This document shows positions 4,011 to 17,343 of a stretch of 22,057 nucleotides of DNA, in pieces. The position numbers and the translations under genes were made by a program. Positions within the stretch are counted from its first letter, which is position 1; each line of letters starts with the position of its first letter. Source of the DNA: an uncultured Clostridia bacterium (GTDB taxonomy: Bacteria; Bacillota_A; Clostridia; Christensenellales; UBA1242); assembly GCA_947629895.1 (NCBI GenBank), contig CANRFP010000014.1:1-22057 (forward strand), in the 5' to 3' direction. The notes beneath the pieces were generated by a model, which did no database searches, was not told the origin of the DNA, and saw only the letters and a program-made list of their open reading frames with translations.

Positions 4011-4016
4011 GTTTGC

Positions 4017-4447: not shown

Positions 4448-4461
4448 AATTTAATCCTCCT

Positions 4462-4815
4462 TTAAGAAAATTTTTTGCGAACATTATCGCGTTCTTGCTG
4501 TGTCGCCGCTAATCCTTCAATATATGCTTCGGCTTTATTACACAAGTCATCATCTAAAATTTTTATCAAAGATATAATGTTTTGCTGAACACCGTTAAAA
4601 CCATCTGCATGAATAATGTTCTTTGTTTCATGTTCAAGCAAATAATCGATTGAAACACCAAAATAATCTGCGAGTAATATTAGAGTATTTGAATCTGGCT
4701 GCCTTTTCCCTAACTCATAATTTTGATATGTTTGCTTTTGTAATTTCAAATCCTGTGCCACTTCAGCCTGTGTTTTTTTTAGATTTTTGCGCAAAAATTG
4801 TAAGTTCTTCATCAT
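4462..4815 (-). CDS. XRE-family repressor B (paralogue of A)
   Basis: This is a 117-aa XRE helix-turn-helix protein closely related to repressor A: both contain YFGVSIDYLL-x-HETK, a QQNII block and a KAEAYIEGL-x-x-TQQERD tail. The start may be the first or second of two adjacent ATGs (ATGATG) after AGGAGG. It is the first gene of the leftward two-gene operon, facing the operator region. Tandem paralogous repressors suggest either heterodimers or division of labour in the way CI/Cro share operators; the sequence does not tell which. Confidence 0.88.
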   Translation of the reverse strand: MMKNLQFLRKNLKKTQAEVAQDLKLQKQTYQNYELGKRQPDSNTLILLADYFGVSIDYLLEHETKNIIHADGFNGVQQNIISLIKILDDDLCNKAEAYIEGLAATQQERDNVRKKFS

Positions 4816-4860
4816 TTAATCCTCCTTTTAAATTTAATTTACACTATAATTGTAAAAAAA

Positions 4861-4952
4861 AATATGCGATTTGTATATTTTTTTCTTAAAAACGCTTGAC
4901 AAATATGCAAATTGTATTCTAAAATTGCATTAGAATATACATTTTGTATATT
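4861..4952 (+). promoter_or_regulatory. Three-copy 19-bp operator array
   Basis: Three near-identical imperfect palindromes occur at 4861-4879, 4902-4920 and 4934-4952, with consensus AATATRCAWWTTGTATATT. The second fills the spacer of the rightward promoter (4896-4925) and the third lies just downstream of it, so binding would block transcription. The first lies on the side of the leftward repressor operon. The layout is that of a lysogeny control region. Confidence 0.75.
4896..4925 (+). promoter_or_regulatory. Main rightward promoter (repressor controlled)
   Basis: TTGACA (4896-4901), an 18-bp spacer and TAAAAT (4920-4925) form the promoter. The spacer is occupied by operator 2. The transcript would enter the tiny frame at 4970, then run antisense to the 5018-5374 gene toward the operon that begins at 5499, because the intervening hairpin has no T tract in this direction. 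Confidence 0.7.
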
Positions 4953-4969
4953 TAATTTAGGAGATGGCT

Positions 4970-5014
4970 ATGGCAGGAAAACAAAAAAATTGCCCCGAAG
5001 GGCAATTTGATTGA
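4970..5014 (+). CDS. Candidate 14-aa peptide on the rightward leader
   Basis: A ribosome site TTAGGAGA precedes ATG 4970, giving MAGKQKNCPEGQFD and a TGA. Its last codons coincide with the hairpin 4987-5008. It is the first translatable frame after the main rightward promoter, so a role as leader peptide or anti-repressor peptide is possible; there is no homology basis. Confidence 0.3.
   Translation: MAGKQKNCPEGQFD
4982..5008 (-). terminator. Leftward terminator of the 5018-5374 gene
   Basis: A perfect 9-bp stem AAATTGCCC/GGGCAATTT (4987-4995 with 5000-5008) has a CGAA loop (TTCG on the minus strand). On the minus strand it is followed by a run of T, on the plus strand by GATTGACG, so it should terminate leftward transcription only. 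Confidence 0.75.
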
Positions 5015-5017
5015 CGC

Positions 5018-5374
5018 TTAGGATTTGCGTTTACTAGATTTCGCTTTACCTTTAGCGTTCAAACGGTTGTTGTTGATACCTACATTTTTGGTATTGCTTA
5101 CAGAAACATTTGATTTAACCTGCACGTTTTTGCTGGAACAGTCAACTTTGGTGCTAGAAACTTTTGAAAGTTCAAGATTTTGTTTGTGTTCAAAATTTTT
5201 AATTCTTCTGTCCAAAGCACCTTCACGTTTTAAGAGATTAGATAGTCTTTTAGAATCACGTTTATCTAAAAATTCATCTTCTCTCTTCTGACGGCGCAAA
5301 TCAGCGATTTCTTCTTTAACCTGATTTAATCTGCCAGCATCGCGTTCACTTCTAAAATTTTGCAAACGATTCAC
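5018..5374 (-). CDS. Basic coiled-coil protein of unknown function
   Basis: This 118-aa protein starts at GTG 5374, behind AAAGGAG. Residues about 1-70 are highly charged helix (NQVKEEIADLRRQKREDEFLDKR); the rest is Ser/Asn/Val-rich and ends in a Lys/Arg/Ser tail (KGKAKSSKRKS). The net charge is strongly positive, so nucleic-acid binding is plausible. It is the only leftward gene inside the rightward block and lies in the leader of the main rightward promoter, so induction would produce antisense RNA across it. A -10-like TATAAT exists on the minus strand (plus 5451-5456). The expression pattern suggests a function in the integrated state. No family is recognised. Confidence 0.65.
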   Translation of the reverse strand: MNRLQNFRSERDAGRLNQVKEEIADLRRQKREDEFLDKRDSKRLSNLLKREGALDRRIKNFEHKQNLELSKVSSTKVDCSSKNVQVKSNVSVSNTKNVGINNNRLNAKGKAKSSKRKS

Positions 5375-5498
5375 TATGTATCACTCCTTTTGTAAAAATT
5401 TCTAGTAAATGGCAATCGACATACCACCTCCTAAACTTTACTAACAAACTATTATAGCAAATTTTGGAGTGATATTAAATAAAAAACGGAGGATTTTT

Positions 5499-5816
5499 AT
5501 GACAAATCAAGAAATTTCAAACTTAATAGATGAAAAATTTGAAAAAGTGAGACAAGAACTCAAAGCACAACTTTGTCCAAAGTGGGAGTTCTCAGAAGAT
5601 GAGAAAGTTATCTTGCGAAATCTTCAGCAAAGATATAAGTGGATTGCGAGAGATATAGACGGCCGGTTATTTATATTTGTTGATAGGCCAATGAAAGATG
5701 ACTATTACTGGGCATCTGCATCTTTGAAAATAGCTCCTTTAAATACATTTGACAAACTCTTCCAACAAATCACATGGCATGACGAAGAACCTTGCGAGTT
5801 TAGAAAATTTATTTAG
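5499..5816 (+). CDS. Small conserved phage/mobile-element protein
   Basis: This 105-aa protein starts at ATG 5499, chosen because CGGAGG lies 7 nt upstream. It has an N-terminal helix (NQEISNLIDEKFEKVRQEL) followed by a small alpha/beta domain with the motif YKWIARDIDGRLFIFVDRP and a C-terminal WHDEEPCEF. This ARD-x-DG ... W-x-D-x-EP pattern is familiar from many uncharacterised early proteins of Bacillota phages and integrative elements; the function is not known to me. It is the first gene of the main rightward operon. Confidence 0.75.
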   Translation: MTNQEISNLIDEKFEKVRQELKAQLCPKWEFSEDEKVILRNLQQRYKWIARDIDGRLFIFVDRPMKDDYYWASASLKIAPLNTFDKLFQQITWHDEEPCEFRKFI

Positions 5817-5827
5817 GAGGAAATAAA

Positions 5828-6109
5828 ATGAAAATCATTAACGAAAAATTTTTCGATCAACTGACAATCAATCCTGGCAACACAGATTTGCCTTACATAG
5901 ACATTTTCAAAGATAAAGTTTGTGATCTTGATAGTTTTAAGATGCATTTAGGCAACTATATTGATTTTTTGAATTATTCTTTCAAAAGATACAAAATTCA
6001 TAGAAAAATAAACCCAATCTTGTCTTTTGACGATTTTATGCGTGAGTTTTGGCTTGAAGGCATATCAACAAAACAAAATATGGAATTTTCCCCTGGTGGT
6101 GCAGAATGA
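5828..6109 (+). CDS. Hypothetical early protein
   Basis: This is a 93-aa protein behind a strong AGGAGG site, 11 bp after the previous gene. It is a soluble, mixed aromatic/charged sequence (FKMHLGNYIDFLNYSFKRYK, FDDFMREFWLEG). No signal peptide, membrane segment or recognisable motif is present. Its stop overlaps the next ATG (ATGA). It is probably an early regulator or replication accessory by position only. Confidence 0.65.
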   Translation: MKIINEKFFDQLTINPGNTDLPYIDIFKDKVCDLDSFKMHLGNYIDFLNYSFKRYKIHRKINPILSFDDFMREFWLEGISTKQNMEFSPGGAE

Positions 6110-6291
6110 GTGTTTCATTCTTGTATCGCGAGGGCTTTTTTATATCCTGGCCAACAAAAAACGCCGGAGATTGCAGAATTTTTGTGAAAAGCAAAAGTGA
6201 AGCAGACAATTTGTATGCCACGTTAAAATCGAAAAATCCGAATGTAGAAAAATACGCGGTAGGTTTTGGAAAAATTAAAAAACTTACTTAA
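6106..6291 (+). CDS. Small hypothetical protein
   Basis: This 61-aa protein is translationally coupled to the preceding gene by a 4-nt ATGA overlap. Its sequence reads as a small alpha/beta fold (FLYREGFFISWPT, CRIFVKSKSEADNLYATLKSKNPNVEKYAVGFGKI). I do not recognise it. It ends just before the ribosome site of the initiator-like gene 6303-6908. Confidence 0.6.
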   Translation: MSVSFLYREGFFISWPTKNAGDCRIFVKSKSEADNLYATLKSKNPNVEKYAVGFGKIKKLT

Positions 6292-6302
6292 AAGGAGATC
6301 AG

Positions 6303-6908
6303 ATGAGAGAAGAGAATATTGCATATTTTGCAAATTTGCCATATCCGGTGCGCGCTTCTACCAACATTTCAAGCGATGAAAAACTTTTGTATGCCGAAGT
6401 TATTGCGCGATTAACGCCCGCCGGCTGCTGCAAAACAACAAATGAAACCTTCGCACAGTTCTTTGGAACTGACGAAAGAACTATCTCTCGCAGAGTGAAA
6501 AACCTGGCAACTTGGGGATATGTGAGAATTACTCAGGATCACAAGCGCCACATTCGAAAATTGTGGCCTCTAGAGATTCAAATCCCGGACATTTCAGAAG
6601 AACCTGAAAAATGGTCAGAAAAGCAAAAAATGTTTGCAAAGGCATTTCCTGAAAGGCAAATTGACATGGCGGACATCCCGGATAGTGTGGATATGGAACT
6701 TTTGATAAAGAAAATCAAGGAATCAAAGTTTCTGTCAAAAGCAAAAAATATGAGCCTGCGATCATGTGTGTTGAAATATAAAGCGATTGTGGCTGACGGC
6801 TATAATCAATTCAGTGAAGAAAAGAAAAAGAAATTCAGCACAGAAAGAAGTTATACCGCAGAAGAAACAAATGCATTATTTCAAAATGTAGACGACATCG
6901 AAATTTAA
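6303..6908 (+). CDS. Winged-helix replication-initiator-like protein
   Basis: This is a 201-aa protein. Residues about 10-95 form a helix-turn-helix/winged-helix of the type found in replisome-organiser and DnaD-like phage proteins: SSDEKLLYAEVIARL, then TNETFAQFFGTDERTISRRVKNLATWGYVRI, with a beta wing ending near LWPLEIQ. The remainder is helical and charged. Such proteins recognise the element's origin and recruit the helicase through a loader; a DnaC-like loader is encoded at 16062-16886. It could instead be only a transcription regulator. AAAGGAG lies before the ATG. Confidence 0.7.
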   Translation: MREENIAYFANLPYPVRASTNISSDEKLLYAEVIARLTPAGCCKTTNETFAQFFGTDERTISRRVKNLATWGYVRITQDHKRHIRKLWPLEIQIPDISEEPEKWSEKQKMFAKAFPERQIDMADIPDSVDMELLIKKIKESKFLSKAKNMSLRSCVLKYKAIVADGYNQFSEEKKKKFSTERSYTAEETNALFQNVDDIEI

Positions 6909-6921
6909 AAGGAGAAAAACA

Positions 6922-8115
6922 GTGCAAGAACACAAACTTAGCGGATGGTGGAAAGCTTTAATAGCAATCTTAATAATTGTTGGTCTGCCGTTGAATGGCT
7001 GGCTGTGTTATTACGAGCTTGTTTTGAAAGAAGCAACCGTTGTAATAGACACTTCGTTTGTGGACACTGCCGGCTATCGTGACGAAGAAACATATTTCAT
7101 GGAAGTAAATTATTATTCCAACGAAAAGAAAAACGGCGTTGAGTGTATGGAGTTTAAATTTAATTATTACATAGACACCTCAATCCCGGACAAAGGTGAA
7201 AATGGATCTTATGACAATAAGTATATGTTTTCAACAGGAGTGCAGCTTATAGACGGAGAAAATTATTATCGCACTTACAACACTACAAATGGCATTTCTC
7301 AAACAGTCACACATTTTGCTTTAAACAACGCAACTTTTTATGCAAGTCCTGATGGCTTAGATCAGGGATATAAAGTTTCAGATGCCACACTTGGAAACAG
7401 TTGGATTTTTGATATTGGCGGAAAGCTTTGTTTAATTGAAAACAAAGGGCTTGTAAAAACAGATAGTTTCTGGTGGTGGAATTATTACGCAGACTATGAC
7501 ATTCAGTTTATGATTGCATCATCAGTTATGTCTATTCAATCATTGAAGAACGGAACAACAATAACAGCGTTTAATTTTAGTGATTATCTTAAAGTCACAA
7601 AAGTTTACGATGAAGAAAGCGGACAATTTAGAGAAGATCTTGTAGATGAAAATATCACAAAATATTTCACATTCATGAATGTTAAAGTAAACAAAACCGA
7701 CAACGGCATGATTGAAGCCAAAAATTCAGTTTTTAATTCTTACAAAGGTGACACAGAATGGTCTTTTCATGGTATTGGCGACAGAAATGCTTATTGGAGA
7801 GATGAAACAATTTACGATATTGATTCAGATGATTTCAAATTCATTTCTGTTGACAATGGTTACAGTATTGAACTTAAAGACTCTTGTATCGAATATCTTT
7901 CTGAATTTTCTGATGTTGTTTTGAACGTTGAAATCAATCTTGACGATTTTAGTTCCATTCTTAACATTATTGGTTTTACAAAAAAACCTTTCAAAAACTT
8001 AAATGTTAATTCAATTAAGATTACATCATCCACACAAAAAGATTTCACTGTTTATGGTTTTGACGATATGGACATTCACACTGAAAATGTCAATATTGTC
8101 CATGGAGGTGTGTAA
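6922..8115 (+). CDS. Membrane-anchored extracytoplasmic protein 1
   Basis: This 397-aa protein starts with GTG after AAAGGAG. It has a short basic N-terminus, one membrane helix (about residues 12-31, ALIAILIIVGLPLNGWLCYY) and a roughly 360-residue beta-rich, Asn/Asp/Tyr-rich ectodomain without a cell-wall-anchor motif. The topology suggests an N-in signal anchor with the bulk outside. I do not recognise the fold. It opens a block of three consecutive membrane-anchored proteins, and the next ATG overlaps its stop. As no capsid gene is found in the element, surface or virion-envelope function is a possible role, by context only. Confidence 0.75.
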   Translation: MQEHKLSGWWKALIAILIIVGLPLNGWLCYYELVLKEATVVIDTSFVDTAGYRDEETYFMEVNYYSNEKKNGVECMEFKFNYYIDTSIPDKGENGSYDNKYMFSTGVQLIDGENYYRTYNTTNGISQTVTHFALNNATFYASPDGLDQGYKVSDATLGNSWIFDIGGKLCLIENKGLVKTDSFWWWNYYADYDIQFMIASSVMSIQSLKNGTTITAFNFSDYLKVTKVYDEESGQFREDLVDENITKYFTFMNVKVNKTDNGMIEAKNSVFNSYKGDTEWSFHGIGDRNAYWRDETIYDIDSDDFKFISVDNGYSIELKDSCIEYLSEFSDVVLNVEINLDDFSSILNIIGFTKKPFKNLNVNSIKITSSTQKDFTVYGFDDMDIHTENVNIVHGGV

Positions 8116-8717
8116 TGCTTGAGATGATTTTAATTGTCGTTGCAATTTTAGCAATAGTGTTGGTTCTTGTTGCTTCGATTAAATATAAAAGTTACAAAGT
8201 TCTTGGAATGATTGTATTGATTGCATGGTGTGGACTTTCAATTTTTAGCGGATTTACTTGTTTCAAATATTATAATTCTCACTCAGATCTTTTCGGAACG
8301 CCAGCTATCCATAATCCTTATGAAAACTTTAATTATTACGAATATGATCTTTCCGGAATTTCTTGGTATTTTACTGAAAATGATCCAACACTTAGATATG
8401 AAGTAGAGTATAAAACCTCAATCAAGTTCGATGGAAACAAAAATAAATATCATTTACTTGTTAATGATGCCCCGTGCACAAGAACCGAATCTTCAAATGG
8501 CAAACTTAAAGGTTTTTTGAAAAAACAGTTTAAAGATATCGATGGTGAAGTTAATAAGGAAATAAATTTTGAAATTACTTTTGAATTTTACACTTCTTCA
8601 ATCGATTTAACAATCAAAACAGATGCTACGCTCGATGATATAGGTTATGTTAATGAATTTGTCGACACATATGGTTTTAATTTAAGAATTATCAATGCCG
8701 TATACGGCGAGATTTAA
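8115..8717 (+). CDS. Membrane protein 2 with ectodomain shared with protein 3
   Basis: This 200-aa protein has two membrane helices (about 4-21 and 29-49) and then a roughly 145-residue soluble domain. The segment INFEITFEFYTSS followed by D-x-x-x-DDIGYVNEFVDTYGFNLRI resembles FDFKLTYKFKSS followed by EDLDHLRDLGFNYTF in the 649-aa protein encoded next, suggesting a common domain. It is coupled by overlap to the preceding gene and followed by AAAGGAGG of the next. The function is unknown; it probably interacts with proteins 1 and 3 at the membrane. Confidence 0.7.
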   Translation: MLEMILIVVAILAIVLVLVASIKYKSYKVLGMIVLIAWCGLSIFSGFTCFKYYNSHSDLFGTPAIHNPYENFNYYEYDLSGISWYFTENDPTLRYEVEYKTSIKFDGNKNKYHLLVNDAPCTRTESSNGKLKGFLKKQFKDIDGEVNKEINFEITFEFYTSSIDLTIKTDATLDDIGYVNEFVDTYGFNLRIINAVYGEI

Positions 8718-8728
8718 AAGGAGGAAAC

Positions 8729-10678
8729 ATGGATTGGAAAAAGGCTTTTAAAATCACAGGTGCTATAATTTTGATTTTAGCTTTCGTGTTTGCCGCAATA
8801 TGGACCGCCTTTAACTGGAAAACAATCTTTTCAGGTTCAAAAATTTACACATCACAGCAAAGAGAAGACTATGGCAATCAACGATATAATGATGCGCTAG
8901 AACAAGCCGAAAAATGGCGTGTGCAAGTTCAAGAATTGCAAGCGAAGGTTGTTGTTTATGAAGAGAATCAAGACAATCTTAAATCACAAGTAAACACATT
9001 GAAAAGTGAGAAAGAAACACTTCAAAATGAAAAAACAACTTTACAAGAAGAAGTAAAACAAAAAACTGCCAAGATTACTGAACTTGAACAATCACATTCA
9101 AGCGATCAAGATGAAATAAAGACTTTAAAAGAAGAAAAAAGTAACTTGGAAGCGCAAATTTTGCAAAAAAATACTCAAATTGCAGAAAAAGAACAGAAAA
9201 TCTTGCAACTGCAAGGACAAATCACTGAATTACAAAACAGTGTGACAAGGTTGAATGCTGAATTAGAAGCTTATAAAGACAAAGACCTTGGACTTAATAA
9301 AGTTGAATTTATGAATGGTGATTCAGTTGAAAAAGTTATTTATTACAAACAAGGAGAAACACTTCCATATATTCCAACTGTAGAACAAACAAAAGATGAA
9401 TGGTTTTATGGTTGGACAAAAAATCAAGGCAGTGAAGAAGTCTTTAACCTCACAACTTCCTATACTCCATCCGGAGATGAAACTTTTTATGCTGTAAAAG
9501 GGCCAACTGTTCCTGTTTATTTGGGCTATTCTTATTATGATGAAAAAAGCACTGCTAAAAAATCATTTAGTTGGTATGGAGAAAATTTAAGAATTAGAGA
9601 TATTTTAATTTTTGACGAAGATATTGATTTAGAAGATCCAAATTTTACACTAGAACTAACATCATATTCTAAAAAAACTCCACATATTACTTTGGATACA
9701 AAATTAAAAGATTTTAATGATTGTCATCTTTATAACGATGGATCGTTTGAAGATGGATATAGTGCGGGTATGCACGCATGTAAATTTGATTTTAAACTGA
9801 CCTATAAATTTAAAAGTTCTCTTTCTGGAATTTTTACTCTTGCAGACCAAAACAAACCATACTTTACCGGGGAGGATTTAGATCACCTTCGAGATTTAGG
9901 ATTTAATTATACTTTTTCTCGTCTTTTGGGATTTGACTATCAAATTAAAGAACCTAATCAAGATCATTATTCTGAATTAGCAACATATAGTGGAGAATTT
10001 AAATTTATTTCCAATGAGGGAAAACAAGAGAATGCTTTAATATCTGTTTATGAATGCACGCTTGACAATTCAGAAAAATTACAATTTATGCTTTATCTAA
10101 ATTTTAACGGAATTATAAATTACAAGTTGAATTATGTAGATAATCTTTCAGAAGGACGAATTATTCAATATAAAAATGTTGAATATGAATTAAATGTTAA
10201 AGATTGCAAATGCAAACCTTGCTACAGATCCGGATCTAATGATTATTTCGATTACTTAAAAGAGACCTACGCCTACTCATTTACTGATAATGGTGAATTG
10301 TGGGTAAATAAATCCCTGGATAACAATAGTTTCGATTATATTATAGAAAGGAAAGGACCTCTCTTCGTTGACTCGAAAAAAGTTAATATTTCTGTTGACA
10401 ATCCAACAGATTTAAGTCTAGACATTTTTGCCTTAGAGAAAGAAGAGAATGTTCAAAACTGTTATTTTGCAATTATCTACACCGTAAGATCCGCGGGAAA
10501 AGATTACTCATCGATTCTTCTAGTATATTATGAAAATAGCGAATTTAAAACTAAAACTCTTATCGAAGAAAGCCCGTGTTCTATTACTAGACAGGGAACA
10601 ATCATAACAATCAATTCAGATAACGAAACTAAAAACTACACATTAAACGAGGATACATTCTCGCTTGATGCAGTTTAA
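8729..10678 (+). CDS. Membrane-anchored stalk protein with coiled coil and InlB-type repeat
   Basis: This is a 649-aa protein. It has an N-terminal membrane helix (about 9-29), a long coiled coil (about 56-186, with heptads such as KTAKITELEQ and LQGQITELQNSV) and one InlB/Listeria-Bacteroides-type small beta repeat (about 190-258: VEFMNGDSV ... YYKQGETLPYIPTVE ... WFYGWT ... FYAVKG). About 390 residues of beta-rich distal domain with a CKCKPC motif follow. The layout of anchor, stalk and distal head resembles adhesins or viral spikes. There is no LPxTG or lipobox. The stalk is similar to that of the protein encoded at 11213-13288. The likely role is contact with other cells or receptor binding, inferred from architecture only. 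Confidence 0.75.
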   Translation: MDWKKAFKITGAIILILAFVFAAIWTAFNWKTIFSGSKIYTSQQREDYGNQRYNDALEQAEKWRVQVQELQAKVVVYEENQDNLKSQVNTLKSEKETLQNEKTTLQEEVKQKTAKITELEQSHSSDQDEIKTLKEEKSNLEAQILQKNTQIAEKEQKILQLQGQITELQNSVTRLNAELEAYKDKDLGLNKVEFMNGDSVEKVIYYKQGETLPYIPTVEQTKDEWFYGWTKNQGSEEVFNLTTSYTPSGDETFYAVKGPTVPVYLGYSYYDEKSTAKKSFSWYGENLRIRDILIFDEDIDLEDPNFTLELTSYSKKTPHITLDTKLKDFNDCHLYNDGSFEDGYSAGMHACKFDFKLTYKFKSSLSGIFTLADQNKPYFTGEDLDHLRDLGFNYTFSRLLGFDYQIKEPNQDHYSELATYSGEFKFISNEGKQENALISVYECTLDNSEKLQFMLYLNFNGIINYKLNYVDNLSEGRIIQYKNVEYELNVKDCKCKPCYRSGSNDYFDYLKETYAYSFTDNGELWVNKSLDNNSFDYIIERKGPLFVDSKKVNISVDNPTDLSLDIFALEKEENVQNCYFAIIYTVRSAGKDYSSILLVYYENSEFKTKTLIEESPCSITRQGTIITINSDNETKNYTLNEDTFSLDAV

Positions 10679-10691
10679 ATAAATTTACAAC

Positions 10692-10707
10692 GGCGCTTTT
10701 AAGCGCC
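10692..10707 (+). other. Hairpin 0 of the structured segment
   Basis: GGCGCTT (10692-10698) pairs with AAGCGCC (10701-10707). It begins 13 nt after the stop of the preceding gene and lacks a T tract, so it is not a simple terminator. Four further helices follow in tandem. Confidence 0.65.
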
Positions 10708-10711
10708 ATAT

Positions 10712-10785
10712 GGGAATGTAGCACAATCAGTAGTGCGAAAACTTGGCCAGTTAATATATGAGTGCAAGGCTCATCATTCCCTCCA
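10712..10785 (+). tRNA. Divergent tRNA-like structure with encoded CCA
   Basis: This 74-nt segment folds as a cloverleaf with tRNA geometry. It has a perfect 7-bp acceptor (GGGAATG 10712-10718 with CATTCCC 10775-10781), two linker bases T-A (U8, A9), a 4-bp D-stem GCAC/GTGC with an 8-nt loop, a purine at position 26, a weak anticodon arm whose 7-nt loop TTGGCCA would give anticodon GGC (only three pairs, AAC/GTT), a 3-nt variable region and a perfect 5-bp T-stem ATGAG/CTCAT with a 7-nt loop TGCAAGG abutting the acceptor. T and CCA follow. A14, A21, T33, G53-C61, C56 and A58 are kept, but G18-G19 and T55 are not. It may be a non-translational or decayed tRNA, or a tRNA mimic; charging identity is unknown. 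Confidence 0.55.
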
Positions 10786-10846
10786 AAGCAGAGAGAAACA
10801 TTTACTCCTCCAAAAATTAAAAATGTTCTGGGCTCTCTGCTTACCA
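10786..10846 (+). ncRNA. NCCA-ended helix 2 (tRNA-acceptor-like)
   Basis: It starts directly after the CCA of the tRNA-like unit. AAGCAGAGAG (10786-10795) pairs perfectly with CTCTCTGCTT (10833-10842), immediately followed by ACCA (10843-10846). An inner 7-bp helix AACATTT/AAATGTT (10797-10803 with 10821-10827) closes a 17-nt loop that contains CTCCTCC, complementary to a Shine-Dalgarno sequence. A continuous helix ending in NCCA resembles an acceptor minihelix. Confidence 0.5.
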
Positions 10847-10895
10847 AAGGCAAGAAGTTTTAAATCCTAAACCAAATTTCCTTCTTGCCTTACCA
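10847..10895 (+). ncRNA. NCCA-ended helix 3 (tRNA-acceptor-like)
   Basis: It follows unit 2 with no spacer. AAGGCAAGAAG (10847-10857) pairs perfectly over 11 bp with CTTCTTGCCTT (10881-10891), followed by ACCA (10892-10895). The 23-nt loop is AT-rich with only weak internal pairing. It repeats the plan of unit 2 (5' AAG, long helix, 3' CTT, ACCA) with a different stem sequence. Confidence 0.5.
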
Positions 10896-10910
10896 CTTGC
10901 AAACTGCAAG
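10896..10910 (+). other. Hairpin 4 of the structured segment
   Basis: CTTGCA/TGCAAG (10896-10901 with 10905-10910) has a 3-nt loop and abuts the ACCA of unit 3. It is followed by an AT-rich stretch and the ribosome site AAAAGGAG of the gene at 10940. Confidence 0.6.
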
Positions 10911-10939
10911 AAAAATTTTATTTAAAAGGAGATAAATCT

Positions 10940-11149
10940 ATGGCAAAAGAACACAAAAAAACAATTTCTTTTTTGAAGGTCCTGTTAAGCATTGCAATAA
11001 TTTTAATTGTTGCCGCAGGAATTTTCTGTTTAACAGTCTTCATTGTTTCAACAATGAATAATGTAACTTTTGTTGAACAGTTGAAGATATGGTTTAACAT
11101 AGTGCCAAAAGAAACTGTTTCTTCAGCAATGCAAAGATTTCTAAAATAA
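10940..11149 (+). CDS. Small single-TM protein (coat/membrane protein candidate)
   Basis: This 69-aa protein starts behind AAAAGGAG. It has a basic N-terminus (AKEHKK), one long membrane helix (about 11-37, FLKVLLSIAIILIVAAGIFC and beyond) and a short soluble tail with alternating hydrophobic and charged residues. Size and layout fit a small virion membrane or filamentous-type coat protein, but equally a small membrane accessory; no family is recognised. It lies between the tRNA-like array and the kelch-repeat stalk protein, and a terminator-like hairpin follows, so it may be expressed more strongly than the gene behind it. Confidence 0.7.
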   Translation: MAKEHKKTISFLKVLLSIAIILIVAAGIFCLTVFIVSTMNNVTFVEQLKIWFNIVPKETVSSAMQRFLK

Positions 11150-11161
11150 CTTTATTGATTC

Positions 11162-11199
11162 AAAAGAGTTGTCAATATATTTTTTGATAACTCTTTTTA
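11162..11199 (+). terminator. Terminator or attenuator before the kelch-repeat gene
   Basis: AAAAGAGTT (11162-11170) pairs with AACTCTTTT (11189-11197); after one mismatch TCAA/TTGA extends the stem. It is followed by a short T run and, 5 nt later, the ribosome site AAGGAG for ATG 11213. It may be a partial terminator setting the ratio of the two genes. Confidence 0.55.
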
Positions 11200-11212
11200 C
11201 AAGGAGAAAATT

Positions 11213-13288
11213 ATGTTTAAAAAGCTTTTAATCTGTTGTTGTGCTTTTTTACTTGCGCTTGGTGGTGTTGCTGGCGGAATGTATTTGTCAAATTATATAA
11301 ATGACAAAAACTATTCTGCTGAGTTAAACAATCAAAAAGCAGATCTCTCTTCTGTTGCTGAGAGTCTATCTAGCGTCCAAAAACAATTGGAGTCTCAAAA
11401 AGCAGAATGTGAAAATTTGAAAACACAAAAAGAAACTTTGGAGAGTGAAAAAGACAAACTTACTAAAGAAAATGCTGCACAAAAACAAGAATTGCAAGAA
11501 AAAACAGCCAAAATAACAGAGTTGGAACAAAATAAAGAACAAAATGAGTCTGAAATTTCTAGATTGCAAGGCGAAGTTTCAAGTTTGCAGCAGCAAATTA
11601 AAGAAAAAGAAACTAGAATTGGCGAGTTGGAATCTCAGGTTAAACAATTACAAAACTCAATCACTCAAAAAGATGGAGAAATTTCAAACTTAACATCTCA
11701 ATACAATACTTTGCAAGGACAATTTACTCAACTTCAAGAAAATTATTCAAAACTTCAGGGCGAAGTTGCAGATAAAGACAATCTTATGAAACAACTTAAT
11801 TCACAAATAAGTGAATTGCAAGAACAAGTTGATCAATTAAAATCTCAACTCGCCGAACTTAGTGTTTTGAATACTGCTAGTGTAAAGAATATTGGCATTT
11901 CTAACCCTCCTTTTTATAGTTCTGATGTCTGGAAGTATAACAATAATATATATCTTACATTTAATAATAAAACTTTTGTATTGAATGATAACACTTGGGA
12001 CTCTTCAATTGATCAGTCTATTTACAAAAGTGATCCAAACAATATTTGGACAGATGGACAGAATATTTATTTTTCAAGTGGTTTTTCTCAATATGTTCTG
12101 AATGATAACAAATGGGAGAAAAAAACTTGGCAAGGTAAATTGCCTGAAATGGGTTTATGTATTTGGACAGATGGTTCAAAAGTTTATTATTCAAATGCTT
12201 CTCAGCAATATGTATTGAATGGAGACACTTGGACGGAAAAAACTTGGCAAGGCTATACAAATATTGAGGCTAGAAATATTTGGACAGATGGAAATAATAT
12301 ATATTATTCGAATAGAACTACATATGTATTAAATGGAGACACCTGGGAAAGAAAGACTTGGAACGGTTTATCAAGTTTGGATGGTGAAAACATTTGGTCT
12401 TTTAATAATAAAATTTATTATTCGAAAGATTCTCAACACTATGAATTAAATGGAGACACTTGGAAAACTAAAACCTGGAATGGTTTGACTAACTTTAGTG
12501 GCCATTATATTTGGTGCGACGAAAATAATGCTTTTTATTCTAAAACATCTGAACAATATGTATTGAATGGAGACACTTGGGAAGTAAAAGAGTGGATCTT
12601 AGATTCTTTTTCAAATTTTGATACTTCTAAAGTTTGGACTGATGGTGATAAGGTTTATTATTCAGATTTGACTCAAAATTATATTTTAGATAATAATGTT
12701 TGGAAAAATAAAACTTGGAATAGCGGGCCAGATTTCTTTGATAGATCTAATGTTTGGACTGATGGAGAAAAAACTTTTTATTCCTCCAGTTCAGATCAAT
12801 TTGAATTAAATGGTGACACTTGGGAAGAAAAAACTTGGAATGGTTTAACATCTTTTAATGCTAGCGATATTTGGACAGATGGCGCAAAAATTTATTATTC
12901 AAATGATTCTCAACAATATGTTCTTAATGAAGATACCTGGGTTATAAAAGAATGGAAAGGTCTTGATTCTTTTACTGGAAGTTCAATTTGGACCGATGGT
13001 AAAAATGTTTATTATTCTAGTGGTTCTCAGCAATATGTATTGAATGGAGACACTTGGACGGAAAAAACTTGGCAAGGCCTTGCAAAGATTGAAACTAGCT
13101 ATATTTGGACAGATGGAATCAATACATATTACTCTTATGGCTCAAATCAATATGTTTTAAGAAATGATTCATGGGTAAAACATTCTTGGAATGGTTTAAC
13201 TAGTTTTTATGCAGGTTATGTATGGACAGACGGCGCAAATTACTATGTATATTCAAATGGACAAAACTATATTCTGTCACATCAATAA
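11213..13288 (+). CDS. Membrane-anchored coiled-coil stalk protein with 11-12 kelch-like repeats
   Basis: This is a 691-aa protein. It has an N-terminal hydrophobic anchor (about 4-26, LLICCCAFLLALGGVAGG), a very long coiled coil (about 35-222) and from about residue 239 to the end eleven full repeats and one partial repeat of 38-41 residues. The repeat core is IWTDG-x-N-x-YYS, then SQQYVLNGDTW, then KTW-x-GL. Alternating W, YY and G at these spacings are kelch-like, so one or two beta-propellers are expected. The stalk shares KTAKITELEQ and related heptads with the protein encoded at 8729-10678. The domain order fits a receptor-binding spike or adhesin. DNA repeats are well conserved in places, which allows repeat-number change. 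No cell-wall anchor is seen. Confidence 0.8.
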   Translation: MFKKLLICCCAFLLALGGVAGGMYLSNYINDKNYSAELNNQKADLSSVAESLSSVQKQLESQKAECENLKTQKETLESEKDKLTKENAAQKQELQEKTAKITELEQNKEQNESEISRLQGEVSSLQQQIKEKETRIGELESQVKQLQNSITQKDGEISNLTSQYNTLQGQFTQLQENYSKLQGEVADKDNLMKQLNSQISELQEQVDQLKSQLAELSVLNTASVKNIGISNPPFYSSDVWKYNNNIYLTFNNKTFVLNDNTWDSSIDQSIYKSDPNNIWTDGQNIYFSSGFSQYVLNDNKWEKKTWQGKLPEMGLCIWTDGSKVYYSNASQQYVLNGDTWTEKTWQGYTNIEARNIWTDGNNIYYSNRTTYVLNGDTWERKTWNGLSSLDGENIWSFNNKIYYSKDSQHYELNGDTWKTKTWNGLTNFSGHYIWCDENNAFYSKTSEQYVLNGDTWEVKEWILDSFSNFDTSKVWTDGDKVYYSDLTQNYILDNNVWKNKTWNSGPDFFDRSNVWTDGEKTFYSSSSDQFELNGDTWEEKTWNGLTSFNASDIWTDGAKIYYSNDSQQYVLNEDTWVIKEWKGLDSFTGSSIWTDGKNVYYSSGSQQYVLNGDTWTEKTWQGLAKIETSYIWTDGINTYYSYGSNQYVLRNDSWVKHSWNGLTSFYAGYVWTDGANYYVYSNGQNYILSHQ

Positions 13289-13337
13289 GTGCTTACAAAG
13301 TGAGTAAATAAACAAAATCAATTAAAAAGGAGAACAA

Positions 13338-13550
13338 ATGACACGTAAAGATTTAGCAGAACAAATTTATCATCACAAAATTAGAACCGGCGCTTGCATT
13401 ACGCCCGTTGGAAGGAAAACGCCTCTTTCAAAACAAGAATTTGTCCATAGATATTTAAACGGTGTTGGTGCAAGCAAAGGTTTTAAAAAAGCCGAGTTAC
13501 AATCTATTTTAAGCCGAATTGAAAAGGTTAAAAGTAAGGAGAAAAAATGA
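13338..13550 (+). CDS. Small basic hypothetical protein
   Basis: This 70-aa protein has an AAAAAGGAG ribosome site. It is Lys/Arg-rich with two short helices (RKDLAEQIYHHKIR and LQSILSRIEKVKSKEKK). It is coupled to the following basic protein by a 4-nt overlap (ATGA). No motif is recognised; association with DNA or with the next protein is only suggested by charge. Confidence 0.65.
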   Translation: MTRKDLAEQIYHHKIRTGACITPVGRKTPLSKQEFVHRYLNGVGASKGFKKAELQSILSRIEKVKSKEKK

Positions 13551-13918
13551 CAAACAAAGAACTGCAGAAGAAAGAACAACAAATTGTTGATTATTCAAGA
13601 AAAGTTCGTGCTGGTGAAACTTGGACAATAAATGATATAAGCACGAGAGGTCACAAATCAACAATCACAAAGGTAAAAGGCGATGAAATTCGTCACATTC
13701 CACGGACACATTCCCCTACTACACGAAGAAGAACAAATATCCCCCTTCAAGAGAATCCGCAAAAGGGCAATCGACAAAAAACCTATATCTTGTCAAAAGT
13801 GCAAAAAACAAAAAGAAAAAACATTGGTAAGAAACACATTAATCAAGATATAAAAAATCCGATTGATAAATCGGTAATTAGACATATGAAGAAGGTTGAT
13901 AAAAAGCGTAAAAAATAA
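13547..13918 (+). CDS. Strongly basic protein (nucleic-acid-binding candidate)
   Basis: This 123-aa protein is coupled by ATGA overlap to the previous gene. Its N-terminal third is mixed (LQKKEQQIVDYSRKVRAGETWTIND). The rest is extremely Lys/Arg/Asn-rich with a SPTTRRRTNIPL segment and a KKVDKKRKK end, giving a very high positive charge. Such composition fits a genome-condensing or packaging protein. It precedes another Lys-rich protein and the Zot-like ATPase, consistent with a morphogenesis or packaging cluster. There is no known family. Confidence 0.7.
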   Translation: MTNKELQKKEQQIVDYSRKVRAGETWTINDISTRGHKSTITKVKGDEIRHIPRTHSPTTRRRTNIPLQENPQKGNRQKTYILSKVQKTKRKNIGKKHINQDIKNPIDKSVIRHMKKVDKKRKK

Positions 13919-13923
13919 AAGAC

Positions 13924-14000
13924 GGGATGGCCTGTGAGTGTTCAAGAACAAACCAGTTCTGTATCCCTATCTTCAGTATTATTATATCCAAAAGATATAA
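13924..14000 (+). other. Structured intergenic segment
   Basis: Before the Lys-rich gene, GGGAT (13924-13928) can pair with ATCCC (13963-13967) around an inner hairpin AGAAC/GTTCT (13945-13949 with 13956-13960). A separate perfect 7-bp hairpin TTATATC/GATATAA lies at 13982-13988 with 13994-14000. No T tract follows, so these are not simple terminators. Confidence 0.4.
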
Positions 14001-14047
14001 AAAAGTCAATATTTATTGGCAAAAAATTAAAAAAAGGAGAAAAAAAC

Positions 14048-14206
14048 ATGAAAAAAACAAAAAAAATCACAAAAAAACCGCAAAAGAAGGTTAAAAGTGC
14101 ACCAAAGAAGCCTACCAAGGCTGTTTATGCTGCAAAGAAGCCCGCAAGTGGCAAAAATGCTACAAAAAGCAAAAATCGCCGTGTAATTGTAATCAATGTT
14201 AGGTAA
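14048..14206 (+). CDS. Lys/Ala/Pro-rich histone-H1-tail-like protein
   Basis: This is a 52-aa protein starting at ATG 14048 with AAAAAGGAGAAAA upstream. It is almost entirely Lys, Ala, Pro, Thr and Ser (KKTKKITKKPQKKVKSAPKK, then KKPASGKNATKSKNRR), like the C-terminal tail of histone H1 or viral core proteins. It would neutralise and condense DNA. It overlaps the start of the Zot-like ATPase gene, linking the two. The A-rich codon stretch raises the chance of slippage errors, but the frame is intact. Confidence 0.65.
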   Translation: MKKTKKITKKPQKKVKSAPKKPTKAVYAAKKPASGKNATKSKNRRVIVINVR

Positions 14207-15113
14207 AATGAAGGAATATGCTAAACTAGAAGACATTTTTGCAGATGGCATTTTCACACCCTACGACACGTTGGTAATTTGGGCGAAGCGCGGCAAGGGG
14301 AAGTCTGCCTTTGCCGCCTTTCTCCAAACTGAATTTATGCGCCCGGCCATAGCAGATTTTTTCATAAGCAAATCAAAAGAAAAATGTGAAAAATTAAAAA
14401 GGGCCGGAATTTATGTCGAACCTCCAAGCGATCATCTAGTTTTTAACGATACATTCTGTTTTGACTATCGAAATCCGAATAGAATCGCATATTCAATCAA
14501 GGCTACAGAGATTGGTATACCAAACAAAATTCACAAGGTAAAGCAACTTATCCCTTTCTCTCAAATCTTTTTGGAAGAAATTCAAGATTTGTTTGACAGT
14601 CACCTTGGTGCACCACCAACCTTTGTCACAAAAGCATTTGAACTTGCGCGACATAATGGACTGTTTCTGTGCATGACTCTTCAAAGGCCAATTCGATTAC
14701 ATAAAGACATTCGCGAAATTGCCACGTTTGTTGAAATTGTTGAAATGCGTGTTGTTAAAAACAAATACGGGAAAATTTTGAGAACTGAGTGGATCTGCAA
14801 CATTATCTATGACAATGCCAATTTGGAATCATATTTAACTTCGAAAGATAATGATTGTGTTGATTTAACAGTCAAATTTGTTTTCAACGGCAACATTTTT
14901 AACTGTTATGATCCTGAATTTTTCTCTTTGGCATTTTACTCCGGGGATAATATTGAGGCTTTAGATCTTGTCAAAACACAAAAAATTGATTTTACACCTG
15001 AATCTCTTGAGTTATTCGGGCAGCAGCACAGCATCGATATTCCTGAAACTTATCGAGGCAAAACTCCAAAACAACCTAAATCTAATAAAAAGGAGAGTGA
15101 TAATAATGACTGA
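14196..15113 (+). CDS. Zot/pI-like P-loop ATPase
   Basis: This 305-aa protein carries Walker A AKRGKGKS (residues 30-37), a Walker B-like QIFLEEIQDLF (123-133), then FELARHNGLFL (148-158) and TLQRP...IR (161-173). The order of P-loop, acidic strand, A-R-H-x-G-L and T-x-Q is that of the Zot/inovirus pI and FtsK-HerA-related packaging or assembly ATPases. In filamentous phages pI drives virion assembly at the inner membrane; here no C-terminal membrane helix is visible, so a soluble packaging role is equally possible. The start is ambiguous (ATG 14196 or 14208). It overlaps the preceding basic-protein gene and the following gene (8 nt). This is the best marker that the element is a virus. Confidence 0.65.
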   Translation: MLGKMKEYAKLEDIFADGIFTPYDTLVIWAKRGKGKSAFAAFLQTEFMRPAIADFFISKSKEKCEKLKRAGIYVEPPSDHLVFNDTFCFDYRNPNRIAYSIKATEIGIPNKIHKVKQLIPFSQIFLEEIQDLFDSHLGAPPTFVTKAFELARHNGLFLCMTLQRPIRLHKDIREIATFVEIVEMRVVKNKYGKILRTEWICNIIYDNANLESYLTSKDNDCVDLTVKFVFNGNIFNCYDPEFFSLAFYSGDNIEALDLVKTQKIDFTPESLELFGQQHSIDIPETYRGKTPKQPKSNKKESDNND

Positions 15114-15561
15114 CGAAGAACGCCGGGCTTATGAAGAATATGTCTTTTCCGAAGACTATTTTGATGAGTTTAGGAAACTCAGAGAAGTTTCTGATATTAT
15201 GTCACCTAAAGAATTTAAGCGCGCGCAACAGTTGATCTCTACTGGGTTAGCAGATAAATATGAGTATCGTAGCAAGATTTCAGCGAAATACAACAAGAAA
15301 ACACCTTGGTGGCGCAAACTGTTGGAGAAGCGAGAACAAAAGAAATCGCTTAATGAACCACTTAAGCAGTCATCCAATCAGGATGAAGCAGAAATTAAAG
15401 CGCGGCCTGAACCTGTTGAAAAAGTTGTTAATAACAAACTTCTTTCACAGTCTTCTTCAGTTACAACTGAAGAATTACTTGGAACAACTGATCGAGTTGT
15501 TCTATTAGGAAATTCAAAAACTTCGAAATCTGCTAAGGAAAGCGAAGCGCTTGCAGATTGA
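15106..15561 (+). CDS. Hypothetical charged protein
   Basis: This 151-aa protein starts at ATG 15106 behind AAAAAGGAG, overlapping the end of the ATPase gene by 8 nt. Residues 1-75 are helical and charged (DEERRAYEEYVFSEDYFDEFRKLREV, KKTPWWRKLLEKREQKK); the C-terminal half is Ser/Thr/Glu-rich and probably disordered. The tight overlap suggests it works with the Zot-like ATPase. No family is recognised. Confidence 0.6.
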   Translation: MTDEERRAYEEYVFSEDYFDEFRKLREVSDIMSPKEFKRAQQLISTGLADKYEYRSKISAKYNKKTPWWRKLLEKREQKKSLNEPLKQSSNQDEAEIKARPEPVEKVVNNKLLSQSSSVTTEELLGTTDRVVLLGNSKTSKSAKESEALAD

Positions 15562-15581
15562 GAGTTGAATTTCCGATTGTC

Positions 15582-15646
15582 AATATGTTGATTTAAACAT
15601 ATTTTCCAAAGGTCGAATAGACCTTTGGCGGTTGCATATCCGCAAC
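15582..15646 (+). other. Three-hairpin intergenic cluster
   Basis: Three successive perfect stems occur in a non-coding gap: AATATGTT/AACATATT (15582-15589 with 15596-15603), CCAAAGGTC/GACCTTTGG (15606-15614 with 15620-15628, loop GAATA) and GTTGC/GCAAC (15631-15635 with 15642-15646). None has a T tract. They could be an RNA-processing site, or a DNA signal such as a single-strand origin or packaging signal. Confidence 0.5.
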
Positions 15647-15693
15647 GGCGCACAAATTTTACTTGTTTTAAAAATTTTTATGGAGAAAATTTT

Positions 15694-16053
15694 ATGAGAA
15701 AAAATGATTTTATTTCAGAAAATTTAAGATTTTGCAAAATTTTAACTCAGCAAAAAATTTCTGCAGAAGATGATCACGTTTTAAAAAATTTCATTGCTGA
15801 AAATTCCGCGCATATTTTCACAGAAATTGTTGCGCAACAAAACAAAATTTCTAAAACAGACTACATAACTGATACAATGCGTCTATGTGAAATTTTGCCA
15901 CGTTGTGAATTTGGATCTCGCGAAGATAGCCAAATTAAGAAAGAAATAGCATCGAATTTATCAAAAATTTCTCAAATTGAAGCAATGGAATCCGAGTCCC
16001 GGCGCAACAAAAAGGATTATGATCTGATCTTAAAAATGACTTCATGTATGTAG
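15694..16053 (+). CDS. Small protein with an internal duplication
   Basis: This 119-aa protein starts at ATG 15694 with GGAG upstream. It consists of two similar halves: KNDFISENLRFCKILTQQ followed by an acidic helix, and KTDYITDTMRLCEILPRC followed by SREDSQIKKEIASNLSKIS. The duplicated helix-turn pattern suggests a small helical protein. The gene overlaps the region just before the helicase-loader start (16062), implying co-translation and perhaps a partner role in replication. No family is recognised. Confidence 0.6.
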   Translation: MRKNDFISENLRFCKILTQQKISAEDDHVLKNFIAENSAHIFTEIVAQQNKISKTDYITDTMRLCEILPRCEFGSREDSQIKKEIASNLSKISQIEAMESESRRNKKDYDLILKMTSCM

Positions 16054-16061
16054 GAGAGCTT

Positions 16062-16886
16062 ATGAGAACGATAAATTTTAAAAGCTACCAATTAAATGAC
16101 GATGAGTATCTAGACGAAAACAATTTGCCTGTATGCTCCATCTGTGGCATGAAAAGATACATTATCAATCCAGTAAATAATCAAGTTTGTATTTGCCTTT
16201 GCAAGTGCCAAAAAGAAAAATCTGAAGAACAACAAGCAAAATTCGCAAGGCTGCAATTATCTATCAAGATCGAAAAGGCTAAATTTTTAAGTCTTTTAGG
16301 AAGAAGATATTTACATGCAACTTTCAACAACAGTGAAATAACTGCTCAAAATCTTGAAATATATAGAAAAATTAAGGACTATGCGGAACGGCATGAAGAA
16401 ATGCTAAAAAAAGGATTTGGATTTTATGTCTATGGGGCAAATGGGGTAGGTAAAACGCATCTCCTGGCATGCTTATGCAATTATTTAATTGAACAAGTAC
16501 AAGCCTGCTGTTTCACAAATTTTTTAAATATAGCCGAAGATCTGAAACGTGCCTATGTATCCAAACAAGATGAAAGTAATGTTATAGCTAAATATTCGAA
16601 AGTCAACTTTTTAATCATTGATGATCTAGGAAAAGAAAGCTATAAAAAAATAAGAAGTGACGATGAAAATCTTTGGCTTGAAGAAAAAATTTTCGAAATT
16701 TTGAATAATCGCTATAATGCAATGCTTCCAACAATTTTCTCTAGTAATTACTCTTTAACCGAACTTTGCACCGTTTTTGGATTTGACAAGGCTATAATTG
16801 ACAGGATCTACGAAATGTCAAACAAAGTCTTTGAAATGAAAGGGCCGAACAGGAGATTTTCAAATCAGCATCAAGAATGTTGGTAG
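16062..16886 (+). CDS. dnaC: DnaC/IstB-type helicase loader with N-terminal cysteine cluster
   Basis: This is a 274-aa protein starting at ATG 16062 after AGGAG. The N-terminus carries a Cys-rich zinc-binding-like cluster (CSICG at 25-29 and CICLCKC at 43-49). The C-terminal AAA+ domain has Walker A GANGVGKT (125-132), Walker B LIIDDLGKE (184-192), sensor-1 SSN (227-229) and an arginine in IIDRIYEM (248). This is the DnaC/DnaI/IstB pattern: loading the host replicative helicase onto the element's origin with the help of the initiator-like protein (6303-6908). No transposase is adjacent, so IstB is unlikely. The length is usual for the family. Confidence 0.88.
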   Translation: MRTINFKSYQLNDDEYLDENNLPVCSICGMKRYIINPVNNQVCICLCKCQKEKSEEQQAKFARLQLSIKIEKAKFLSLLGRRYLHATFNNSEITAQNLEIYRKIKDYAERHEEMLKKGFGFYVYGANGVGKTHLLACLCNYLIEQVQACCFTNFLNIAEDLKRAYVSKQDESNVIAKYSKVNFLIIDDLGKESYKKIRSDDENLWLEEKIFEILNNRYNAMLPTIFSSNYSLTELCTVFGFDKAIIDRIYEMSNKVFEMKGPNRRFSNQHQECW

Positions 16887-16894
16887 GAGGGCTT

Positions 16895-17089
16895 ATGGAA
16901 ACAACACTAAAAGAAAAAATTGAGAAAATCATGGCTTGGCACGATTGGGCCCCTTGGCAATTCGCCAAATGGCTTGGCGTGTCCAATTCTCAAGTAACGC
17001 GTTGGAGATCAGGTCAACAAACTCCGCGCGGCGAAACCTATATGAAAATTTGCAAGGAATTTGACGATAAATTTTCAAGTGGAGGTTGA
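16895..17089 (+). CDS. Small XRE/Cro-like DNA-binding protein
   Basis: This 64-aa protein starts at ATG 16895 after GGAGGG; the upstream in-frame ATG belongs to the preceding reading region. A helix-turn-helix covers most of it: WAPWQFAKWLGVSNSQVTRWRSGQQTPRGETYMKIC. It is similar in kind to small phage HTH regulators and differs from the two repressors at the left end. It is located directly after the helicase loader and may tune late or replication gene expression. Confidence 0.7.
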   Translation: METTLKEKIEKIMAWHDWAPWQFAKWLGVSNSQVTRWRSGQQTPRGETYMKICKEFDDKFSSGG

Positions 17090-17090
17090 T

Positions 17091-17342
17091 ATGGATGGTT
17101 TAAGCGTTTATTCACAAGTTGACAGAACTCAGTATTTCTCTATTTCAACAATCGATCCAGAACAAATGAAAAAGCATGGATTGAATATGTCTATCTCGCA
17201 ATTAAAAGAATTGGCGCGTAATCATCCATGGGCAAAAGAAATTCGCACCGGATCTTCTACAAATGAAAAAAGACAAAGTTGGACAAAAATTTATAGATAT
17301 GATGATTTCAAAAATTTTAACTATAAAAATGTGGGAGGATGA
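17091..17342 (+). CDS. Small hypothetical protein
   Basis: This 83-aa protein starts at ATG 17091 with GTGGAGG immediately upstream and one base between it and the preceding stop. The sequence is mixed polar (LSVYSQVDRTQYFSISTIDP, then MSISQLKELARNHPWAKEIR). No motif, signal or membrane segment is seen. It belongs to a run of tightly packed small genes. Confidence 0.6.
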   Translation: MDGLSVYSQVDRTQYFSISTIDPEQMKKHGLNMSISQLKELARNHPWAKEIRTGSSTNEKRQSWTKIYRYDDFKNFNYKNVGG

Positions 17343-17343
17343 T

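Follow-up and report, generated by a model that had tools for sequence, protein, structure and literature searches.

Candidate tRNA-mimicking RNAs with encoded CCA ends between the genes of a Zot-type provirus from an uncultured Clostridia bacterium

The stretch of DNA that we have analyzed, referred to here as the window, comprises 22,057 nucleotides of contig CANRFP010000014.1 (assembly GCA_947629895.1) from an uncultured Clostridia bacterium. A tRNA-Ala gene is found at 2421-2497 and its 3' part is repeated downstream, generating direct repeats of 47 nt at 2452-2498 and 20441-20487, with a tyrosine integrase gene (2566-3723, minus strand) adjoining the repeat. Repeat and integrase together place the array described below in an integrated element of ∼18 kb (2452-20487). 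The marker of the element is a Zot-type ATPase of 305 residues, similar to pI of filamentous phages (14196-15113, plus strand), that scores 19.1 bits against the Pfam Zot family, just under the cut-off of 20.3, and is without a PHROG match; its structural model has a mean pLDDT of 90.9 and as best PDB match the Zot domain from Neisseria, 2r2a (E = 1e-7). A scan of 14 proteins of the element brought up a replication-initiation/DnaD-like protein and a DnaC-like loader and no rolling-circle Rep; the element also encodes small membrane proteins, as judged by eye. We refer to it as inovirus-like and not as an inovirus. Zot-type elements are common in a Clostridia family of ∼1 Mb genomes: the Zot alignment matches 94 of the 309 genomes in the G001 family (E ≤ 1e-20) and 44 of the 396 genomes sampled from the order (E ≤ 1e-15), yet neither the Zot protein of the window nor an alignment of 40 Zot sequences finds a confirmed relative among the viral contigs. 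Two further features of the element deserve mention. A second structured RNA, of the Rfam family DUF3800-VIII (4022-4088, plus strand; 44.6 bits, cut-off 40.2), sits between repressor genes and the integrase, and a 190-residue protein with no Pfam match (18383-18955, plus strand) is 63-69% identical in four otherwise diverged elements.

The array itself occupies positions 10692-10910 of the plus strand. Upstream is a gene for a protein of 649 residues (8729-10678, plus strand) with a hydrophobic N-terminal segment, recognized by eye, and a coiled coil, and downstream one for a protein of 69 residues (10940-11149, plus strand), by eye a small membrane protein and lacking a PHROG match. An earlier note on this DNA, made from the letters alone, had described five consecutive helices between two membrane-protein genes, the second a cloverleaf and the next two perfect helices followed at once by ACCA, without spacers between the units; folding and a renewed reading of the sequence bear this out, with some corrections, the first of which concerns hairpin 1. 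This hairpin (10692-10707; GGCGCTT/AAGCGCC, 7 bp) begins 13 nt past the stop codon of the upstream gene, its CC is paired so that there is no free NCCA end, and ATAT follows. The tRNA-like unit of 74 nt (10712-10785) has perfect acceptor (7/7), D (4/4) and T (5/5) stems, an anticodon-like arm of 3 bp with the loop TTGGCCA, a short variable region and an encoded TCCA end. Unit 2 (10786-10846) consists of a perfect 10-bp helix, AAGCAGAGAG/CTCTCTGCTT, that encloses an inner helix of 7 bp and ends in ACCA; its loop carries the anti-Shine-Dalgarno-like string CTCCTCC (10805-10811). Unit 3 (10847-10895) is a perfect 11-bp helix, AAGGCAAGAAG/CTTCTTGCCTT, again ending in ACCA, and is followed by hairpin 4, CTTGCA-AAC-TGCAAG (10896-10910). 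Unit 2, unit 3 and this last hairpin each begin one base past the preceding CCA. The Shine-Dalgarno sequence of the downstream gene, AAAAGGAG, is read at 10924-10931.

The minimum free energy (MFE) of the array, -67.4 kcal/mol, compares with -44.5 (sd 4.2) kcal/mol for 200 shuffled versions, corresponding to z = -5.5, and none of the 200 folds as well. For hairpin 4, comparison with shuffles gives P = 0.03 and 0.01 in two runs. The Rfam model of the histone 3' UTR stem-loop (RF00032) matches hairpin 1 with its flanks (10687-10731, plus strand; 26.3 bits, E = 1.7e-5); the score is below the cut-off of 34 and we take it as a chance likeness of a short hairpin.

How similar is the 74-nt unit to a tRNA? 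The Rfam tRNA model (RF00005) matches 10712-10782 with 39.3 bits (cut-off 29) only when the search is confined to 311 bases and its filters are permissive, and misses it with default filters; the tRNA gene finder ARAGORN reports neither this unit nor its counterpart in the homologous locus L001 described below. The closest of 85 distinct tRNAs is tRNA-Thr(GGU), with 51 identical positions and a score of 24 (next isotype 15), although these tRNAs were taken from the fetched loci and Thr is over-represented among them because matches of the R1 model brought several in. The best of 200 mononucleotide shuffles scores 6, and the L001 cloverleaf is nearly equally close to Thr (19) and Val (17). When R1 is used as a finder it matches 69 of 309 genomes and, besides G001, the eight loci inspected are tRNA-Thr; the anticodon-stem helix of R1 carried no information, since its three pairs were two columns off. 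The window unit shares with tRNA-Thr(GGU) the cloverleaf, the stem lengths, the CCA end and, nearly letter for letter, the D-arm, and differs in that U55 is replaced by G and G18 by A, the variable region is short and the anticodon would be GGC. Unlike an ordinary tRNA it is placed between protein genes and has lost U33 in L001. It had been noted that the unit loses both G18-G19 and U55. The loss of U55 holds, the T-loop TGCAAGG (10763-10769, plus strand) reading U54, G55, C56 and A58 in our own numbering, while that of G18-G19 holds in part: the D-loops AATCAGTA (window) and AATGAGAA (L001) can be read, in the same numbering, as A18-G19, so that the G19-C56 contact may be kept while G18-U55 is replaced by A18 and G55. 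U33, listed as retained, is present in the window and is a C in L001.

L001 derives from the metagenome-assembled genome of an uncultured Clostridia, isolate Lapin-025, a name that suggests rabbit, and is the only one of 13 loci found via the Zot alignment in which BLAST detects the array (81% identity over 287 bases). Identity of the upstream protein is 57%, and between array and Zot this locus has no counterparts to the products of the window genes at 10940 and 11213. Hairpin 1 is present in a 6-bp form. Compensatory stem changes between homologues are indeed found, 18 of the 19 cloverleaf pairs being kept in L001, six of them by double change (37 of 38 cells pair), as against 0 to 2 double-changed pairs when the partners are slid; 10 of 500 shuffles reach this level, and covariation from two sequences alone is suggestive only. 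The L001 cloverleaf has C33, one mismatch in the anticodon stem, a T-loop identical to that of the window and no Rfam match. In unit 2 the outer stem is identical and TCCTCC is kept, and unit 3 shows one compensatory change, G-C to A-T. The unit ends read, in order, ACCA, ACCA and ACAA; two of the three CCA junctions are therefore kept and one is lost. In a third genome, G013, a counterpart is found only for units 3 and 4 (83% over 48 nt); it is preceded by a different NCCA hairpin and followed by a small gene, with the unit 3 counterpart ending in CCCA. Among 396 genomes of the order G001 alone has a DNA relative at E ≤ 1e-6; no close DNA relative is found in phage records and none in viral contigs by a 37-base exact pattern.

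Comparable RNAs can nevertheless be recognized in other Zot loci. The set that we have used contains 140 fetched regions (part of the matches listed), the window and five earlier loci, for a total of 146 loci (1.99 Mb), 145 of which have Zot. Scanned on both strands, 23 of these loci from related Clostridia yield 23 RNA blocks, assembled partly by eye, and 123 of the 145 Zot loci have none of these RNAs by the scans used. Abutting NCCA arrays comprise six units in L110, four in L107 and two each in L093 and L095, and L109 has two NCCA units separated by 2 nt. Under strict conditions, with NCCA helices separated by 0-3 nt, no pairs are returned from 0.86 Mb of shuffled sequence (one strand). 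Under looser conditions, abutting helices form 29 pairs in 94 loci, compared with 4 once the same 1.35 Mb has been shuffled (both strands scanned); 15 of the 29 lie in reported arrays (some being mutual alternatives) and one is two ordinary tRNAs. We have dropped six pairs judged by eye to be chance and seven formed by the palindrome GTGTGCTTGTC (L113, L116, L123, L147 and L155). The long palindrome around GTGTGCTTGTC...GACAAGCACAC is seen near the Zot genes of L113, L116, L119, L123, L147 and L155 and may represent a repeat or a DNA recombination element.

Nine tRNA-like units of 55-78 nt are found, including those of the window and L001 and one in the L093 array, with T-loops TGCAAGG, TGCAAGT, TGCAACT, TGCAATT, TTCAATC and TTCGAGT. 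Acceptor and T-stem add up to 12 bp in eight of the nine (7+5 in the window), and to 11 bp plus an unpaired base in L101, where 10-15 were allowed. The usual D-arm is absent from the MFE folds of all but the window and L001 units, and the folds of L093 and L099 show no T-arm. The acceptor/T-arm scan, when CCA and a T[GT]NRA loop are required, yields 15 candidates with a score ≥ 27 on the Zot strand, one of which was dropped as a tRNA fragment, and 0 on the other strand, the limit of 27 having been set once matches had been seen. Controls at this limit return 13 (Zot strand) and 17 (other strand) for other loops, 0-6 and 0-3, respectively, for ten other tails, and 0, 2 and 3 for three shuffles of all loci, both strands. 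At all scores the T-loop motif with CCA occurs 17 times on the Zot strand and 7 on the other, and other tails are unequal between strands as well (CAA 25/13, ACA 21/10, CGA 9/1). Less stringent scans were of little use. Omitting CCA from the acceptor/T-arm search gives noise (CCA is present in 5 of 232 Zot-strand matches and in 1 of 177 from the opposite strand), omitting the T-loop condition gives 71 non-tRNA matches on the Zot strand, 89 on the other and 148 in shuffles, and hairpins with NCCA between genes (28/1742 versus 15/1615) are in large part unrelated. The candidates L002 (score 30) and L177 (26) are apparent fragments of ordinary tRNAs, L132 (24) was omitted as weak, and L109:9812-9926, with an ACCA end and no clear cloverleaf, was left out of the count.

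A second form of RNA, of 120-200 nt, was first met in four loci. Its RNAalifold structure comprises a 7-bp acceptor, a two-base linker, a 3-bp D-like arm, a 5-bp arm with a large loop, a variable-like arm, a T-arm with a 7-nt loop, the closing acceptor strand and CCA, the same plan as in a type-II tRNA. A model of the class finds seven more members in the loci (L105 and L156 had been noticed earlier; L008, E = 2e-4, and L088, 2e-5, are weak) and matches in 12 of 309 genomes, E being below 1e-10 at eight places that include the four training loci. Weak matches of this search of 309 genomes and those at G470:C68, G456:C34 and G450:C10 stand outside the counts, as do weak R2 matches at 8722-8783 of the window and in L128, L213 and L218. 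In a MAFFT alignment of ten members, four of which had provided the structure, 87.6% of cells are paired, and double changes are seen in 18 of the 29 pairs (50 such cells), compared with 4-8 pairs and 5-10 cells in the slid control; four of five measures are reached by none of 500 shuffles and the fifth by 7 of 500. In one small helix the paired cells amount to only 56.5%. A CCA end is present in 7 of the 11 members with a visible 3' end, four of the seven having built the model, and absent from L222, L092, L008 and the L156 copy. The L153 copy has no match in phages or plasmids, and two exact patterns of the class are absent from viral contigs.

Beyond tRNA, no Rfam family reaches its cut-off on the 15 of 23 RNAs scanned, a number that combines scans of the window and 16 loci at cut-off with searches of short stretches at looser limits; L135, L152, L104, L085, L088, L222, L092 and L008 lie outside these scans. 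The whole L105 and L156 loci give tRNA only at cut-off, and the one match with E ≤ 1 in L153:1800-2150, to 6A RNA (19 bits versus 41.2), falls outside the RNA.

All 22 RNA blocks on Zot-bearing contigs are found on the same strand as Zot, 0.8 to 7.7 kb upstream of it; several of the blocks are related, so that these are not 22 independent events. A Shine-Dalgarno-like string follows 8 to 133 nt past the block in 21 cases, with a start codon after it in 19 (a loose pattern). A hairpin directly after the RNA has P ≤ 0.14 in nine of 23 blocks, none from the pure 120-200-nt class, and amounts to a trend that is confined to the array and tRNA-like set. Shortly before the Shine-Dalgarno sequence of a gene the string AAAAGTCGA recurs (L107 at 6322, L110 at 7221, L010 at 7065, L135, L153 and others); it comes after the RNA in several elements and is also seen in elements without such an RNA.

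The CTCCTCC string of unit 2, to which the earlier note had drawn attention, has parallels in the other blocks. CCTCC occurs in 16 of 23 blocks, 14 of which have it outside the NCCA end, whereas shuffles of the whole RNAs give a mean of 3.1-3.2 blocks and a maximum of 8-9 (300 shuffles); GGAGG occurs in none of the 23; related blocks have CCTCC by common descent. The recurrence is thus above shuffles, while pairing specifically with the Shine-Dalgarno sequence of the next gene is at most slightly so (mean complementarity 5.96 nt, as compared to 5.32 nt in shuffles; P < 0.1 in 4 of 23, namely L107, L110, L101 and L008). A lock in cis, with the loops of the RNA on the adjacent Shine-Dalgarno sequence, is therefore not supported, and the strings look more like an anti-Shine-Dalgarno sequence of general reach.

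Support for the RNA structures is good, and positions 10692-10910 are best explained as encoding non-coding RNA within the transcript of a Zot-type, inovirus-like provirus. We consider it reasonably probable that this RNA belongs to a new group of tRNA-mimicking RNAs that lie inside phage mRNAs and are excised by host RNase P. The hallmarks of the group would be an acceptor stem that often closes on a T-arm whose loop reads U-N-N-R-A, usually an encoded NCCA, and a position on the Zot strand ahead of a ribosome-binding site. The proposal of a CCA-ended, tRNA-like precursor gains strength from the compensatory changes, the likeness to tRNA-Thr and the similar RNAs of other Zot elements, and is to be set beside the CCA lost at one junction in L001.

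Because units begin one base past the previous CCA, RNase P alone could cut the array, and it is for this reason that excision by RNase P is proposed. RNase P RNA pairs with an RCC end and cleaves model hairpins in vitro, in which a stem followed by RCC(A) suffices (PMC12710915). Units 2 and 3 end in ACCA, the window cloverleaf in TCCA, with U73 in place of a purine, and the helices of units 2 and 3 (10 and 11 bp, no T-arm) fall short of the ∼12-bp acceptor/T stack. In the pathway that we envisage the array would be co-transcribed with its flanking genes, and host RNase P would recognize each acceptor or acceptor/T-arm stack together with the NCCA and cut 5' of every unit, such that a spacerless array would be dissected by a single enzyme and CCA 3' ends produced. 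Excision would separate the upstream from the downstream mRNA, the cut before hairpin 4 leaving this hairpin as the 5' end of the latter. Finally, the released RNAs, many with CCUCC, might act on Shine-Dalgarno sequences in trans; both this action and operon punctuation are hypotheses for the function, and it is the CCUCC strings that prompt the guess of an effect on translation. More tentatively still, and as a possibility that we rate well below the group reading itself, Zot-type phages of these Clostridia might place modular CCA-ended tRNA mimics, some of them in spacerless tandem, between their genes so that host RNase P cuts the phage mRNAs at defined sites and frees CCUCC-loop RNAs that act on translation. 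The CCUCC inner loops would then mimic the 3' end of 16S rRNA, and the 120-200-nt class would be shaped as a type-II tRNA with an anti-Shine-Dalgarno loop in the place of the anticodon loop.

Other explanations have to be weighed against excision of tRNA mimics. The hairpins could act as DNA, forming a packaging signal and/or a replication origin of a filamentous-type single-stranded genome as in the Ff phages, consistent with the Zot-fold ATPase, with five hairpins in ∼220 nt between genes, and with the placement of all 22 RNAs on a single strand, upstream of Zot; the stem covariation fits DNA hairpins too. However, the resemblance to tRNA, the T-loop consensus and the encoded NCCA are features of RNA, G-U pairs are found on the coding strand, the architecture varies freely from element to element, and the 14 proteins scanned include DnaD-like and DnaC-like ones and no rolling-circle Rep. 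We favor this explanation less and regard it as improbable. A similarly low likelihood is assigned to stable mRNA hairpins between two genes whose sole effect is to protect the transcript or attenuate it, the CCA ends being incidental. Stable helices at an intergenic site before a Shine-Dalgarno sequence, and the CCA lost in some relatives, are what this would predict, but runs of four and six abutting NCCA units, T-arms with 12-bp stacks, the coincidence of T-loop and CCA on one strand and a covarying cloverleaf class are not, and terminator-like sites, like promoter-like ones, occur at chance level. A phage-borne tRNA that decodes alanine codons (anticodon GGC) beside unrelated hairpins would account for the TTGGCCA loop, U33, CCA and an Rfam tRNA score above cut-off, yet is very unlikely given C33, the mismatched anticodon stem and the missing Rfam match in L001, the replaced U55 and G18, the failure of ARAGORN on both units and the seven other tRNA-like units without the usual D-arm in their MFE folds. 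Just as unlikely is a captured tRNA decaying without function beside chance hairpins, suggested by the resemblance to tRNA-Thr and the CCA lost in L001, since stems are kept by double changes even though the upstream protein is only 57% identical, and the RNAs recur in other elements.

If true, excision of tRNA mimics from phage mRNAs would give a DNA phage a new route into the pathway of tRNA processing and would be an unusually compact way to punctuate an operon. It would also permit direct tests of the minimal portion of a tRNA that RNase P needs in nature, and of anti-Shine-Dalgarno loops on tRNA-like carriers as a means of translation control.

Several known systems provide points of comparison. 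In the Ff filamentous phages an intergenic cluster of hairpins acts as DNA; like the window, the Ff intergenic region combines about five hairpins with an element encoding a Zot/pI-type ATPase, and to our knowledge its hairpins have no tRNA features or NCCA ends. C-rich small RNAs of Gram-positive bacteria bind Shine-Dalgarno sequences through C-rich loops complementary to them, as in the RNAs described here, and we know of none that is tRNA-like or arranged in arrays. Plant RNA viruses and a few cellular RNAs offer familiar cases of tRNA mimicry. We could not find the present group of tRNA-mimicking RNAs described: a literature search, with subscription papers mostly outside its scope, returned no description of such RNAs in inovirus or filamentous-phage elements. 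Viral tRNA-like structures such as that of TYMV mimic tRNA and have a CCA end (PMC12710915), and the yjdF riboswitch has a tRNA-like fold (PMC9142559); the former are the ends of RNA genomes and the latter is a riboswitch, whereas the RNAs of the window type are intergenic, partly in tandem, and belong to a DNA element. Substrates of RNase P other than tRNA include the phage M3 and C4 RNAs, 4.5S RNA, tmRNA and mRNAs (PMC11143913), with phage and operon contexts known, as for the window array. The putative substrates here differ in that several CCA-ended helices follow one another in spacerless arrays, within an element of the Zot type.
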